Shown here: positions 26,901 to 32,890 of the stretch, piece by piece | Position numbering within the stretch: the stretch's first letter is position 1 | Layout of the letters: every line of letters starts with the position of its first letter | NCBI GenBank assembly: GCA_003141855.1 | Contig: PLNS01000011.1 | Location: 2,528-39,270 of the forward strand | Source of the DNA: Candidatus Bathyarchaeota archaeon | GTDB lineage: Archaea > Thermoproteota > Bathyarchaeia > Bathyarchaeales > Bathycorpusculaceae | Length of the DNA stretch: 36,743 nt | Direction of reading: 5' to 3' | Notes under the pieces: generated by a model | Databases searched by the model: none | What the model saw: the letters and a program-made list of their open reading frames with translations, nothing else | Told to the model about the DNA's origin: nothing | Position numbers and translations under genes: made by a program

Positions 26901-27980
26901 TTAGGAGTGGATTGTTTGTGCGATTCTAAAAATGATGAATTCCGCTGGCTTTACAGGCGCCACACCGATAAGCACTATTAACCGCCCGTTATCAATGTCG
27001 TTTTGAGTCATCATGCTTCTATCGCACTTCACAAAGTATGCCTCTTGCTGGGTAGCGCCTAATATCATGCCAGCTGTCCATGCTTGAGTTAGGAAATTCT
27101 CGATTGCTGATTTAACTTTAGTCCATGTTGCCTGGTTGTTTAATTCAAAAGTTGCCCATGCTGTTCCTTTGGTGATTGATTGCTCAAGGTAAATGAGCAG
27201 TCGTCGAACGTTAACATATCGGGTTTCTAGGTCGCTGGAGAGGGTTCTGGCGCCCCACACCCTGATGCCCCTGTCTGGGAAAGAGCGTATAGTGTTTATT
27301 CCTTGCGAATTAAGCGGTTCAAGCAGGTTTTGGTTACCCGAAAATTCAGTGCCAACTGCACCCTTGACTACTTGGTTGGCAGGCGCCTTGTGAACGCCCT
27401 GTTCAATATCCACTCGTGCGTAAATTCCCGCAATATGTCCGCCTGGCGGAACCAAACATAACCGCCCTGTTGTGGCTTCCTTAATGTTAATCCATGGGTA
27501 ATACAAAGCAGCAAACGAAGACTCATGCGGCTTAGTAACGCTGGATGGGTCCTGCCCCTTAAGCGAATCAAAAATAACAAACCGCTTCCTTAACCGTTCA
27601 CAATGACTAATCAATGCGTCAGCCAAACCTGCTACGGCTTGAGCGTTGGGAGAGTAAACAATTGACACTTCATCAACTTTTTCAATATTAGCGATAGCTG
27701 ATGCATAATCAGAATTAACCACCTTGCACCCATAGCATCGCTGCCCGCCGTTTAGGAAAAAACCTTCAACAGCATAAGGCAGATACTTGCCCTCGCCAAA
27801 GTAGCCGCCAAAAACCTTTTGGTAATCAACCCAACTCGTGACGAGTGTTGGCGTGTTTGGACCCGTTTGGGTTTCCCCTAAAAAAGCAACGGTGCTTGTG
27901 CTTACGCCTTCGATTGGTTGCGGATGAGAGGCAATGTTTTGTATGTATATTCCGGGCGGTTTTATGGTAAAGCGGCTCAT
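26901..27980 (-). CDS. Contractile injection system / phage tail sheath protein, orphan
   Basis: A 359-aa sheath subunit of the contractile tail family, close in length to the sheaths of extracellular injection systems (Pvc2/Afp2, about 350 aa). The N-terminus has PPGIYIQNIASHPQPIEGVS and STVAFLGETQTGP. The C-terminus has the well-conserved block FLTQAWTAGMILGATQQEAY, VKCDRSMMTQNDIDNGRLIV and LIGVAPVKPAEFIIFRI, which holds the sheath core interactions. A sheath contracts around an inner tube to drive it through a membrane. No tube, baseplate, spike or ATPase gene is nearby, so this copy either works with parts elsewhere or is a remnant. ATG 27980 overlaps the stop of a 29-codon leftover frame by 4 nt. 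Confidence 0.9.
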   Translation of the reverse strand: MSRFTIKPPGIYIQNIASHPQPIEGVSTSTVAFLGETQTGPNTPTLVTSWVDYQKVFGGYFGEGKYLPYAVEGFFLNGGQRCYGCKVVNSDYASAIANIEKVDEVSIVYSPNAQAVAGLADALISHCERLRKRFVIFDSLKGQDPSSVTKPHESSFAALYYPWINIKEATTGRLCLVPPGGHIAGIYARVDIEQGVHKAPANQVVKGAVGTEFSGNQNLLEPLNSQGINTIRSFPDRGIRVWGARTLSSDLETRYVNVRRLLIYLEQSITKGTAWATFELNNQATWTKVKSAIENFLTQAWTAGMILGATQQEAYFVKCDRSMMTQNDIDNGRLIVLIGVAPVKPAEFIIFRIAQTIHS

Positions 27981-28382: not shown

Positions 28383-29822
28383 TTGCCATCTAGTGACGAA
28401 ACACTTCTCCCAGATCTCGAATGGGAATTAATGACTAAACCGTTAACGGTCACCAAGGTTAACGATAATGAGCGCCTTCCAAAAGGTCAAAAGAGAATTA
28501 TAATTACACGAGACAACGATTATAATCTTCACGGGGAATTGGAATTCGAGGACAACGACTTCGGGTCTTCATATTTTTGCAATCAATCTTCTCCTGGAAC
28601 TTTTATTAAATATTTTGAAATAACTGGCTCAAACCATTCAGATTCTCGTCAGTATACCCTTGAAAACTGCTACATTAATCCAGATGGAATGGTATTAGGT
28701 GAAAACAAAGCTAATCTTTTCTTAAGTGCGCTAAAAATTAAATCAAACCCTGAACAGGAAGTCGTCCATTTTAATGAGTGGTGTCTTAATGGGCCATCTA
28801 CAGCAGTATTTTCAAGAAGTACAATTCGAAAATTAAATAGAATTTACACTAAAGAACGCTTTGAAAATAGCGATAAAAAATTAGAATCAATAACGATAAC
28901 AAATACTCCTACAAGTTACGCAATGGATTATCTTTTAATAAACGCACTGGATTACAAGTTTATCGTAGCAAAAGCGCCAGAACACTTGGGACCGATTTGG
29001 TCATCAAACATAGGAATTGAATATAGAACTGAATGGGGCAAAGTACCTAATTCTGCCGAGCGGGAAGAAATAATCGAGTTATTAAGTTTCGTATTTGGGC
29101 GCCAGTTGTTGCCCATTGGCTACACGGCTTATAATAAAGATGAAAACGTCCTCGAATCATACGCTCGCCATCCTTGGGGATATTCTGCAAAGTCCATTTG
29201 CTCTATAGACGGTTTTCCTCCAGTGCCTGTCGATATTTGGCACAAGGATAGCGCTAAAAATGCAATCCAAAGTCTATTACCCATTTATCTCCAAAAATGC
29301 GAAGATTTGAATTTAAAAGAAGCACTTTGGAACTATTGGGTTTCTCGACAAATGCCGCTAGGAGCTAATTTTGCCATTTTGGGAGCTAGCATTGAATTCA
29401 TAATGCGAGGTTGGTTCAGCAAAAAATCAAGAAGCAATATATATTTAAAGAAAAGTGCCTTCGAAAGTTTGCTGTCCGATGATATCAAAAGTATGCAAAA
29501 TAAGCTTAACAAGTTACCTAACGGGGAGAAGATAATGGATAATATTCATAGATCAAACGAAGCAGGGGTAATGAAAAGATATGCGCTCTTCTTTGAGGGA
29601 ATAGGTATAGACCTGAGCGATTCTGAGCGGGCGGCAATTGAAGAGCGCAATGTCTCTGTCCATGCAAAAGCATTATTTGAAGAGACAGACTCACACGAAC
29701 TAGCATTACATGCAAGAACTTTTGAAGTCCTGTTTAACAAAATTATACTAAAACTGTTAGGCTATTCAGGAAATTACATCGACTATACATCCAGCGGATG
29801 GCCAGAAAAACAAATCAATTAA
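28383..29822 (+). CDS. ApeA-like HEPN-domain protein, candidate anti-phage RNase
   Basis: A 479-aa soluble protein. The N-terminal half (about 20-220) is beta-rich, like the N-terminal domain of ApeA-type proteins. The C-terminal half is helical and ends in a HEPN-like domain whose RNVSVH motif (422-427, Arg-x4-His) is the usual HEPN RNase site, near the helix SDSERAAIEERN. Such proteins often act in phage defence or toxin systems by cutting RNA. The ApeA relation is judged by eye. The gene is visibly richer in A/T than its neighbours, which suggests transfer. The frame starts at TTG 28383; ATG 28431 is a possible alternative. Confidence 0.6.
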   Translation: MPSSDETLLPDLEWELMTKPLTVTKVNDNERLPKGQKRIIITRDNDYNLHGELEFEDNDFGSSYFCNQSSPGTFIKYFEITGSNHSDSRQYTLENCYINPDGMVLGENKANLFLSALKIKSNPEQEVVHFNEWCLNGPSTAVFSRSTIRKLNRIYTKERFENSDKKLESITITNTPTSYAMDYLLINALDYKFIVAKAPEHLGPIWSSNIGIEYRTEWGKVPNSAEREEIIELLSFVFGRQLLPIGYTAYNKDENVLESYARHPWGYSAKSICSIDGFPPVPVDIWHKDSAKNAIQSLLPIYLQKCEDLNLKEALWNYWVSRQMPLGANFAILGASIEFIMRGWFSKKSRSNIYLKKSAFESLLSDDIKSMQNKLNKLPNGEKIMDNIHRSNEAGVMKRYALFFEGIGIDLSDSERAAIEERNVSVHAKALFEETDSHELALHARTFEVLFNKIILKLLGYSGNYIDYTSSGWPEKQIN

Positions 29823-29852: not shown

Positions 29853-30260
29853 TCAAACGGGGGGTCTTTTCTGCGCATACTGATAGCGTCGTGGTTTGCC
29901 TAGGCGGGTTAGTATGTTGTCTTTAACCAAATCCACCAGTGCGTGGGCTACGGCGGTGCGGTCGTAGTGGAAGCCTTTGCGTGCGAGTTCAGTGTGGACG
30001 TCGTCTAAGCCTCTTGGCTCTGCGAACCATTTTTCTTCCCAGAGTTTTTGGATTACGCCTCGGCAGGTTTCGGCTCTTGGCAGGGGTGCGGGTCGTTCGG
30101 CTAGTTGGGTTAGGTTGGTGTTTTTGAGGCGTTCGGTTATGGTGGTGAGGATTCTGTCTACGGCTGTTTGGATTTGGTCGGGTTGGGCTTCGATTTCGAA
30201 TTCTATGTCGCCGATTTTCATTTTTACGCGTATGGGAGGGTTTTGCGGTTTTTCTGTCAA
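29853..30260 (-). CDS. Winged-helix regulator divergent from nurA-herA
   Basis: The protein is 135 aa from TTG 30260, which follows AGGTGAAG. An N-terminal stretch (KIGDIEFEIEAQPDQIQTAV and a long helix) could dimerise. The C-terminal 65 residues look like a winged helix (RGVIQKLWEEKWFAEPRGLD, DVHTELARKGFHYDRTAVAH, LVKDNILTRLGKPRRYQY). The frame is open further upstream to 30398, but that part lies in the promoter. It is divergent from nurA-herA, with paired inverted repeats over both promoters, so it is probably a local repressor that also controls itself. Remnants of its tail occur at 27977-28066 and 28287-28325. Confidence 0.65.
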   Translation of the reverse strand: MTEKPQNPPIRVKMKIGDIEFEIEAQPDQIQTAVDRILTTITERLKNTNLTQLAERPAPLPRAETCRGVIQKLWEEKWFAEPRGLDDVHTELARKGFHYDRTAVAHALVDLVKDNILTRLGKPRRYQYAQKRPPV

Positions 30261-30282
30261 CTCTTCACCTATTGTATATTGA

Positions 30283-30307
30283 ATTGTGCAAGATGCGCAT
30301 GCACAAT
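30283..30307 (-). promoter_or_regulatory. Inverted repeat over the regulator's promoter
   Basis: ATTGTGC (30283-30289) and GCACAAT (30301-30307) are perfect inverted repeats with an 11-bp spacer. They fall on the expected transcription start of the minus-strand regulator gene, just downstream of its TATA-like ATTTAAGTA (about 30308-30317). Confidence 0.5.
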
Positions 30308-30348
30308 ACTTAAATATTTCACCAATAAAGATATTGAATATTGGTGAA
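30308..30348 (+). promoter_or_regulatory. nurA promoter with 10-bp inverted repeat
   Basis: The TATA-like CTTAAATA (30309-30316) is followed by TTCACCAATA (30318-30327) and TATTGGTGAA (30339-30348), perfect inverted repeats with an 11-bp spacer, the same spacer length as the repeat at 30283. The right arm covers the start of transcription and the GGTGA ribosome site (about 30343-30347) of the GTG start at 30354. Confidence 0.55.
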
Positions 30349-30353
30349 TCATC

Positions 30354-31424
30354 GTGATTGAACAATATACAATTACTAACAAATATAACTTTCCACAACC
30401 CTCCATAGACTCAACCCTCCCCCAACGCTTCTTCGAGCAAAGCATCCACTCCCTCAAACAAGTCCAACACCACCCCCTGCAACTAAACCAGCAATTTCAA
30501 CAACTAAACACAACCGAACAATACCCCCACAACATACAACTAAAACCCCAACCAATCATCCTAAAACCCGACCACCAAGAAACAATAATCGCCGCCATCG
30601 ACACCTCAACAATAAAAATCGGCGAAACCAGCACCGGCATAATCGTCGCCGTCCGAGGAGCAACCACATGGAAACAAAACGGCGCCTACAAATACACCCG
30701 CCTCGGACCCTTCATATTCCACATAACAGAGGAAAACAAAAACCAACTATACAACACGCTCGAACACGCGTACTTTAGCACCGCATACGGTAGCTGCCAC
30801 CAAGCCGCACCAAACATCATGCAAATGCCCACACGCCTCGCCAGCCTCTTAGAGCGGTGGCTGCAAACCATGCTCGCAAAAACCGTAAACCGCGGCGTTC
30901 TCCTGTTTGATGGCTCATTAACCTGTGGCACCCCTGAAACCCCAACCCAACGCCTCAGAGAAATCTTGGGCTATGCAAGAAGAAACCAAAGCACCGTTTT
31001 GGCGTTCTCGAAAGCCACCACGCTAAGAGCCAACGGCTTGTTAATAACGGAGCAGCTTCCAAACCGTGACCCGCCCTACTTGCTTGAAACCGCAGGCGTT
31101 CATTCAAAACCGCCGATGATGCTGCTGGGCGACGTTTATGTGGCGCGATTAAACAAGGCAAACCTTGCGTTTAGATTGGACATCGACAAAGAAACGCCAG
31201 TTGAACAGCGGATGGATGCCATCCAAAAACTGCTCGGCAACGACCTCTACACACAAAGCTACCCCGAAACACTCCGCCTATCCCACATCCTCTGCGCTTT
31301 CACCGCCAACGAAGTCCTAGCCATCAAACACTTCATCACCCGCAAACACGGCATCCAAATCATCAACCGACCCGACATGCACAAACTCCTCTTCGGATCA
31401 TACGGTTTCAAAGGAGAAAATTAA
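30354..31424 (+). CDS. nurA: NurA-type 5'-3' nuclease
   Basis: A 356-aa NurA-domain nuclease. Family motifs are IIAAIDTSTIKIG (metal-binding D83), LLERW (E167), VLLFDGSLTCG (D186), a C-terminal PPMMLLGDVYVARL, and LRLSHILCAFTANEV with a likely catalytic His. NurA cuts DNA ends and works inside the hexameric HerA pump; in most archaea the two act with Mre11-Rad50 in DNA-end resection. Residues 35-60 are unusually Gln/His-rich (VQHHPLQLNQQFQQLN). The start is GTG 30354 after GGTGA. It is followed after 2 nt by herA. No mre11 or rad50 lies in this window. Confidence 0.85.
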   Translation: MIEQYTITNKYNFPQPSIDSTLPQRFFEQSIHSLKQVQHHPLQLNQQFQQLNTTEQYPHNIQLKPQPIILKPDHQETIIAAIDTSTIKIGETSTGIIVAVRGATTWKQNGAYKYTRLGPFIFHITEENKNQLYNTLEHAYFSTAYGSCHQAAPNIMQMPTRLASLLERWLQTMLAKTVNRGVLLFDGSLTCGTPETPTQRLREILGYARRNQSTVLAFSKATTLRANGLLITEQLPNRDPPYLLETAGVHSKPPMMLLGDVYVARLNKANLAFRLDIDKETPVEQRMDAIQKLLGNDLYTQSYPETLRLSHILCAFTANEVLAIKHFITRKHGIQIINRPDMHKLLFGSYGFKGEN

Positions 31425-31426
31425 TC

Positions 31427-32890
31427 ATGAAACTCTACAAAAAAGAAGGCAACATCCTGCAGATCATCAGCTTCCCTACTGAGAGCGCTGAAAAAGGCGA
31501 TTATCTGCTGGTAGAAGATGCCGACGCAGCCAAAGCGCTCATCGCACAGGTTATAGACGTGCAGTTCGCCGCTGTTCCAGGCGTTCTGGAGGAACTTTTG
31601 CGTACGCTCCCTGACGGAGGCGAACCCTTGCAGGGCGAAGACATCGACCCCATGGAAATCGCTCCGCACATCACCTACATCCAAGATGCAAGTCTGCTGA
31701 TCTGCAAAATACGCGCCACTTTAGAGAATGAAATGTTGAGCCCAAGCAGCAGCTGGCTTCCTTCCCGCTCGCAGTCCACGATCAAGAAACTCTCCATCCC
31801 TATGCTCATGAAACTCGCCAAAGTCGACGGTAAACTGCCCATAATTTTGGGCGGAACCAAAGACTCCTCCCTCTTAACCATCGACGCTTCATCCATAGAC
31901 GGCACACTAAACATCATAACAGGCAAGAAGGGTTGCGGTAAATCGCACCTCTCCAAACTCCTAATGGTCAACCTCGTGGGCTACAAAGCAACCGTCGTAA
32001 TTTTTGACTTGAACGGCGAATACTCAAGCCTAGGGCTGACCAACGACGGCAAAAGAAACATGTACTACGACAAAATCCACACCCTGATACCCTCGCAGAA
32101 CTTCAAGGTGGCGCTTGAGCAGCTGCCCCTGAACACGGTGATGGGTATACTCGTAAACGCGCTCCATTTGCCTGGAACCTCAGCTCGCGAGTTTCGGCGT
32201 TTGTGGAAGATGCTCAAAGAACAAGGAAAGCTCAACATGCAAAATTTGGGTGAGGCGATTCGCGACTTAAACTGCAACCAGCACGTGCGCGACGCGTTGG
32301 CTTCACGGTTCCACTCGTTTGCTAACTCAGGATTTTTCACTGACTGCCCAGGCGAAGCAACATTGCTCGATGAGAGCCTCTTTAAAGCTAAGGATGCAGG
32401 CGGCGCCATAATCGTAAACCTAAAAAACACTTCGAATATCGACCGCCAAATCGTAGTCGAATACGTCCTAGGCAAACTCGTCGATTCCCTCTCAAACTGG
32501 AAACTCAAAGCCGTCTTCCTCTTCGCTGAAGAAGCCCACTTGTACCTACGAGAAACCTACTGGGACGACATCGTCACCCGCATGCGCCACTACGGCATAT
32601 TCACCACGTTCATAACCAACCAGCCCGACACCATCCAAGACACCATCTACCGCCAAGCCGACAACATCTTCCTCTTCAACTTCACCAACGAACACGACTT
32701 GGATGTGGTTTCAAGGGCTGCACGTGTGGATGCTGAAACTGTTCGCTCAATCGCCCGCGATTTGCCCCCTCATCACTGCTTAACTTTAGGCAAAGTTGTC
32801 AGGGATTTCCCCATAGTTGCCCGCGTCAGAGCTTTAGACATTAAAACGATGGGTGAAACCAGACTCTTCTTTCCTACCCTTAATTCTTAA
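31427..32890 (+). CDS. herA: HerA-like DNA-translocating ATPase
   Basis: This 487-aa protein has the HerA plan: an N-terminal HAS-barrel (about 1-100, with KGDYLLVEDADAAKALIAQV), then a FtsK/HerA-type ATPase core. Walker A is GKKGCGKS (166-173), followed by VVIFDLNGEYSSLG; Walker B is AVFLFAEEAHLYL (362-374, catalytic Glu 368/369). The Arg-containing segment TRMRHYGIFTTFITNQPDTI precedes the C-terminal part. HerA forms hexamers that move DNA into the NurA nuclease. The length is normal. The 3' end overlaps the convergent surface-protein gene by 57 bp. Confidence 0.88.
   Translation: MKLYKKEGNILQIISFPTESAEKGDYLLVEDADAAKALIAQVIDVQFAAVPGVLEELLRTLPDGGEPLQGEDIDPMEIAPHITYIQDASLLICKIRATLENEMLSPSSSWLPSRSQSTIKKLSIPMLMKLAKVDGKLPIILGGTKDSSLLTIDASSIDGTLNIITGKKGCGKSHLSKLLMVNLVGYKATVVIFDLNGEYSSLGLTNDGKRNMYYDKIHTLIPSQNFKVALEQLPLNTVMGILVNALHLPGTSAREFRRLWKMLKEQGKLNMQNLGEAIRDLNCNQHVRDALASRFHSFANSGFFTDCPGEATLLDESLFKAKDAGGAIIVNLKNTSNIDRQIVVEYVLGKLVDSLSNWKLKAVFLFAEEAHLYLRETYWDDIVTRMRHYGIFTTFITNQPDTIQDTIYRQADNIFLFNFTNEHDLDVVSRAARVDAETVRSIARDLPPHHCLTLGKVVRDFPIVARVRALDIKTMGETRLFFPTLNS

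Follow-up and report, generated by a model that had tools for sequence, protein, structure and literature searches.

A sole NurA-HerA operon and its divergent winged-helix gene flank a conserved candidate operator in a Bathyarchaeia genome

The window, a 36,743-nucleotide stretch from a 2.39-Mb, 96% complete genome of the Bathyarchaeia, carries what is probably a sole, vertically inherited NurA-HerA end-resection operon under the control of its own divergent winged-helix protein (wHTH), which probably represses its own gene as well. Established here are the identities of the genes, the single copy of the set, its synteny, the strict linkage of its three genes, the conservation and uniqueness of the candidate operator, and the joint loss of the genes. 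A sequence-only reading of this DNA had proposed a self-regulated module. That proposal is supported at the level of phylogenetic footprinting, by the strict linkage, by a deeply conserved and genome-unique candidate operator and by the fact that the three genes are present or absent together.

Organization of the locus

The reading frames bear out the described arrangement of a winged-helix gene divergent from a tight nurA-herA operon. A gap of 93 bp separates the winged-helix gene from nurA-herA, and only two bases lie between the nurA stop and the herA start. The genes referred to below are the following.

29853-30260, minus strand: winged-helix gene, 135 aa, TTG start; N-terminal beta-hairpin and helix, C-terminal winged helix
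30354-31424, plus strand: nurA, 356 aa, GTG start at 30354
31427-32890, plus strand: herA, 487 aa
34524-34967, minus strand: NUDIX gene, a syntenic landmark

The likely start of wHTH is the TTG at 30260, preceded on the minus strand by a Shine-Dalgarno sequence, GGTGA, at 30269-30265. An Rfam scan of the window returned no matches. Near the module, a phage tail sheath-like protein (Pfam Phage_sheath_1 and Phage_sheath_1C) is encoded at 26901-27980 on the minus strand. Between this gene and the regulator lies the gene of a 479-aa protein (28383-29822, plus strand), for which no Pfam or PADLOC match and no relative in 20 compared loci were found.

NurA and HerA

HerA is unremarkable in its domain, its motifs and its closest solved structure: it passes the DUF87 model with 50.7 bits, its Walker A (GKKxxGKS) and Walker B (EEAH) motifs are invariant, and the best PDB match of its profile is 4d2i, an entry named HERA. 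The NurA protein scores 18 bits against the Pfam NurA domain and misses the cut-off of 21 because its sequence is strongly diverged; a scan of its own genome with this model gave nothing at E<=0.001, the window NurA itself included. Distant tandem NurA relatives in other families pass the same model with 49-71 bits. Sequence searches of the PDB with NurA and with wHTH found nothing significant, so that comparison of predicted folds was needed. The AlphaFold model of NurA (pLDDT 78) has S. solfataricus NurA (2ygk) as its best PDB match, with an E-value of 1.2e-8, and matches T. kodakarensis NurA as well. Three residues, D83, E167 and D186, are invariant in 20 relatives, and we propose them as the putative catalytic acidic residues; going by order and spacing alone, they would correspond to D58, E116 and D133 of the S. 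islandicus enzyme (PMC4351679). Membership of the window protein in the NurA family is thus based on fold, motifs and linkage to herA, its sequence falling below the Pfam cut-off.

The winged-helix protein

The wHTH protein matches no Pfam or NCBIfam family. In its AlphaFold model the C-terminal winged helix is confident (pLDDT near 90), and the N-terminal hairpin and helix are less certain. Its fold matches in the PDB are winged helices of the Fur, BlaI, PadR, RTP and Hop2 types (the last including 2mh2, which we take to be Hop2), none of them below E 0.001. The recognition region, GFHYDRTAVAHALxDLV, is near-invariant across 34 sequences.

Other families have small paralogues of wHTH, with the same N-terminal beta-hairpin and helix pattern, arranged in tandem at a distance of a few kilobases. 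In families across the class these tandem winged-helix-like paralogues share a cluster with gatD-gatE and nurA-herA (loci L131, L133, L134, L289, L291 and L295).

The control region

The 93-bp gap and its borders contain the following elements.

30270-30316, plus strand: conserved regulatory block TATTGnnTATTGnATTGnnCA...TGCRCAAyAyTTAAATA
30283-30307: inverted repeat IR1, the candidate operator, with the core TTGTGCA-N9-TGCACAA at 30284-30306
30309-30316: TATA box CTTAAATA, assigned from sequence and conservation and probably used in both directions
30318-30348: inverted repeat IR2, with a left arm kept mainly in the genus and a right arm, TTGGTGAA, that is the nurA Shine-Dalgarno region
30343-30347, plus strand: nurA Shine-Dalgarno sequence GGTGA, conserved, 6 nt ahead of the GTG at 30354

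The sequence-only reading had described two perfect inverted repeats with a common 11-bp spacer. The repeats exist, but the spacer is not common to them: IR1 has arms of 8 bp (30283-30290 and 30300-30307) around 9 bp, IR2 has arms of 10 bp (30318-30327 and 30339-30348) around 11 bp, and IR1 reaches a spacer of 11 only if its arms are trimmed to 7. Among 1000 dinucleotide shuffles of the 93-bp gap, 45 contained a perfect arm of 8 bp or longer and 3 contained one of 10 bp or longer. Conservation is a stronger test than composition, and IR1 passes it while IR2 fails. Of 87 distinct orthologous intergenic regions, 79 contain the pattern TTGnnCA-N9-TGnnCAA, and none of the shuffles does; the spacer is nearly always 9, any other length being found in one region or none. 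Both arms of IR2 are present in 16 of the 87 regions, and its right arm, which is the nurA ribosome-binding site, in 82. The alignment of orthologous regions therefore leaves one widely kept candidate operator, IR1, instead of the paired operators that had been claimed, IR2 as a pair of arms being confined mainly to the genus. The two repeats differ in arm sequence and hence do not represent the same operator twice, and since the right arm of IR2 coincides with the Shine-Dalgarno region of nurA, there is probably no second operator; IR2 was rejected as one on conservation.

IR1 adjoins the nurA TATA box. Its exact consensus has a single match in the genome, namely the window site, and one-mismatch matches are no commoner than those of a reversed-pattern control, so that no wider regulon is visible. 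The gap between nurA and wHTH is 77-91% identical to that of other genera of the family and 87-98% within the genus; the 90 bp that precede mre11 in these genomes give 39-60% and 62-84%. The suggestion that the repeats lie over two predicted transcription starts agrees with positions that would place the starts about 25 bp on either side of the shared TATA box. A sigma-70 promoter scan gave chance-level results, that model not being applicable to archaea.

TATTG-type repeats (TATTGnnTATTGnATTG) at 30270-30286 lie immediately ahead of the IR1 core and are conserved nearly as well as the candidate operator; on the opposite strand they lie within the leader of the regulator. The half-sites of IR1 are about 16 bp apart from centre to centre, and a third TGnnCA lies off the dyad. 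Such a spacing is unusual for one homodimer bound on one face of the helix.

Copy number, synteny and descent

The sequence-only reading had suspected a second copy of the nurA-herA pair. A search of the genome found no further set: the window HerA is the sole DUF87 match, and no other NurA was found. The pair does stand apart from mre11-rad50, as had been stated, the latter being on a different contig (L078). In three families of the order (f4, f6 and f7), the divergent wHTH and nurA-herA, a NUDIX gene on the wHTH strand and mre11-rad50 on the nurA-herA strand follow in a row, and nurA-herA is linked to mre11-rad50 in genomes G053, G058, G070 and apparently G072. Because the gene order in these three families continues into mre11-rad50, the window pair represents the ancestral repair cluster. 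In the family of the window (f1), wHTH, nurA-herA and NUDIX are kept and the neighbouring mre11-rad50 is lost; NUDIX adjoins herA in several families. Across 29 genomes, identity in HerA rises and falls with identity in Mre11 (rho 0.955). The module is, to judge from these comparisons, an ordinary repair locus that was vertically inherited. Such ordinary repair machinery had been expected to be a sole copy in a lineage without the regulator and the repeats; the copy is indeed the only one, but relatives do carry the regulator and IR1.

Some relatives that have the window-type module also possess a second, canonical-length nurA-herA-mre11-rad50 operon. These second sets are sporadic, and in the five genomes where this layout was inspected they are ordinary, compact nurA-herA-mre11-rad50 operons, full at L171, L174 and L177 and truncated at L172 and L178 (genomes G017, G046, G071, G013 and G003).

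Linkage and loss among relatives

The 80 close relatives found by name are all Bathyarchaeota, Crenarchaeota or uncultured-archaeon records, and the genus is probably Bathycorpusculum. In 76 of the 80 named loci wHTH adjoins nurA-herA, the other four lying at contig ends or at an assembly gap. An apparently solitary wHTH at L251 was discarded, since an assembly gap of N lies just upstream of it. Among 81 related genomes wHTH is present in 45, nurA in 44 and herA in 46, and with few exceptions the three come as a set. The exceptions include truncated contigs, G076 with its broken gene set, and G055, where the weak matches stem from another NurA-HerA, a tandem one that lacks the divergent wHTH.

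Of the 32 genomes of the genus, 10 have the module and 22 lack all three genes; 17 of these 22 are at least 90% complete, and five have no DUF87 match at all. Most of the module-less genomes tested still have the surroundings of NUDIX but not a remnant of the three genes, which leaves clean empty sites. The Mre11 tree nests G024 beside two carriers, G000 and G022; in G024 the tail-sheath gene that is upstream in the window directly abuts NUDIX (L159). The absences fall at three or more separate positions within the genus in this tree, a single-gene tree with partly weak support, and further absences occur in families f6 and f9. The module thus appears to have been lost cleanly several times among the closest relatives.

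Candidate substitutes

A weak Mre11-type match of one kind is present in 10 of the 22 module-less genomes and in none of the 10 carriers (Fisher p 0.013, uncorrected for kinship). Four such loci were read fully, with family scans on one; each has an SbcD-like gene and, behind it, an SbcC-like gene, a pair of bacterial type. The remaining loci are presumably bacterial-type SbcD-SbcC as well. A UvrD-PDDEXK fusion of about 1000 aa is found in 12 of the 22 module-less genomes and in two of the 10 carriers, apparently broken in one of the two (Fisher p 0.12, uncorrected for kinship). At four loci of module-less genomes (L321, L322, L323 and L324 in G020, G010, G026 and G002, respectively) SbcD-SbcC lies near the fusion of about 1000 aa.

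SbcD-SbcC and UvrD-PDDEXK together are a possible replacement resection machine. The distribution suggests non-orthologous replacement of NurA-HerA, with many module-less genomes showing neither candidate. An AddAB-like replacement was considered as the full explanation and is unsupported, because about half of the module-less genomes lack a strong UvrD-PDDEXK match.

Proposed regulation and its alternatives

In the proposed mechanism, wHTH would bind the 23-bp element TTGnnCA-N9-TGnnCAA. The one TATA box (30309-30316) would direct starts near 30338 for nurA and near 30287 for wHTH, so positioned that the element covers the predicted start of wHTH itself and abuts the BRE and TATA box of nurA. 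Bound wHTH would hinder TFB and TBP and lower transcription both of nurA-herA and of its own gene, until a signal released it, for which DNA breaks or replication stress are plausible candidates. We infer the binding, the repression and the identity of the signal, and it is from the position of the element that the protein is read as a repressor and not an activator. The element could also be read by a factor other than wHTH.

Sites upstream of the BRE are bound by certain activators in archaea, and the element lies directly upstream of the nurA BRE and TATA box; wHTH might accordingly recruit TFB from there as an activator. We regard this as unlikely, because the element overlaps the position of the BRE and the predicted start of the regulator, which autorepression fits better. 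Another reading would have wHTH work alongside NurA-HerA as a partner that binds, for instance, DNA ends or junctions, with the element serving as a promoter for general factors or for another regulator. The protein is better conserved than NurA in distant families, is always lost along with nurA-herA and belongs to a local family of small paralogues near repair genes, all of which would suit a partner. It is, however, encoded divergently and not co-transcribed with nurA-herA, the near-palindromic element that abuts the TATA box is unique and of fixed spacing, and the recognition helix hardly varies, as suits a constant DNA target; such a partnership seems to us decidedly unlikely.

The idea in the sequence-only reading that the pair is a second set deployed against foreign DNA could draw on the patchiness of the module within the genus and on the CRISPR-linked extra nurA-herA pair of Pyrobaculum (PMC3396285). 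It is contradicted by the single copy in the genome, by the conserved synteny with the nurA-herA-NUDIX-mre11-rad50 cluster and the ancestral linkage to mre11-rad50, by vertical inheritance, and by clean losses instead of insertions at varied sites. PADLOC returned nothing beyond weak HerA-like and mad8 models, the NCBIfam HerA models scored well below their cut-offs, and neither a known defence partner nor a match passing a curated HerA defence model was found at the locus. We consider a defence role of this kind very improbable, and return to autorepression as the preferred reading.

Relation to known systems

HerA-NurA acts in DNA end resection (PMC4351679, PMC8708640) and is essential in the archaea where this was tested (PMC4351679, PMC12977600). 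The window pair is a variant of the known repair operon. Like the mre11-rad50-herA-nurA operon of Sulfolobus and Thermococcus (PMC4351679, PMC12977600), it has the same NurA and HerA folds and motifs and a nurA-herA tandem, and in three sister families the cluster runs on into mre11-rad50. Unlike that operon, the window pair is split off, with its own divergent promoter, a dedicated winged-helix gene, a conserved operator and a NurA of far diverged sequence. The Pyrobaculum nurA-csm6-herA cluster (PMC3396285) is likewise apart from mre11-rad50, but is an extra paralogue beside CRISPR arrays, whereas the window pair is the sole copy and has no csm6 between nurA and herA. With HerA-based anti-phage systems the window locus shares a HerA-type ATPase beside a nuclease; its partner, however, is NurA and neither Sir2 nor DUF4297, and its matches to HerA models are weak.

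Divergent archaeal autoregulators of the winged-helix, MarR or Lrs14 type are small proteins that face their target operon across a short promoter region. The window wHTH faces nurA-herA in this manner across a short common promoter region, but differs in having no family match, in its end-resection target and in the unusual 16-bp half-site spacing. A limited literature search found no description of a dedicated NurA-HerA regulator.

In Sulfolobus all four genes are essential and high constitutive expression has been suggested (PMC4351679); a review describes UV co-induction there (PMC8708640), and another study records no increase in repair gene expression (PMC2246294). A dedicated switch at this locus would therefore be informative either way. 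The regulator-operator pair, conserved across families, offers a defined target for the question of whether archaea switch on break repair transcriptionally.

Genes that are essential in S. islandicus are absent, as a module, from two thirds of the genus. Our tentative and somewhat doubtful picture is that in this order a dedicated transcriptional switch may run NurA-HerA resection, and that in this genus switch and machine may have been dropped together several times, partly alongside the gain of a bacterial SbcCD and a one-chain UvrD-PDDEXK helicase-nuclease, which would be a natural replacement of a complex essential in model archaea. The repeated clean loss in one genus indicates that some archaea live without NurA-HerA, and points to candidate substitutes.
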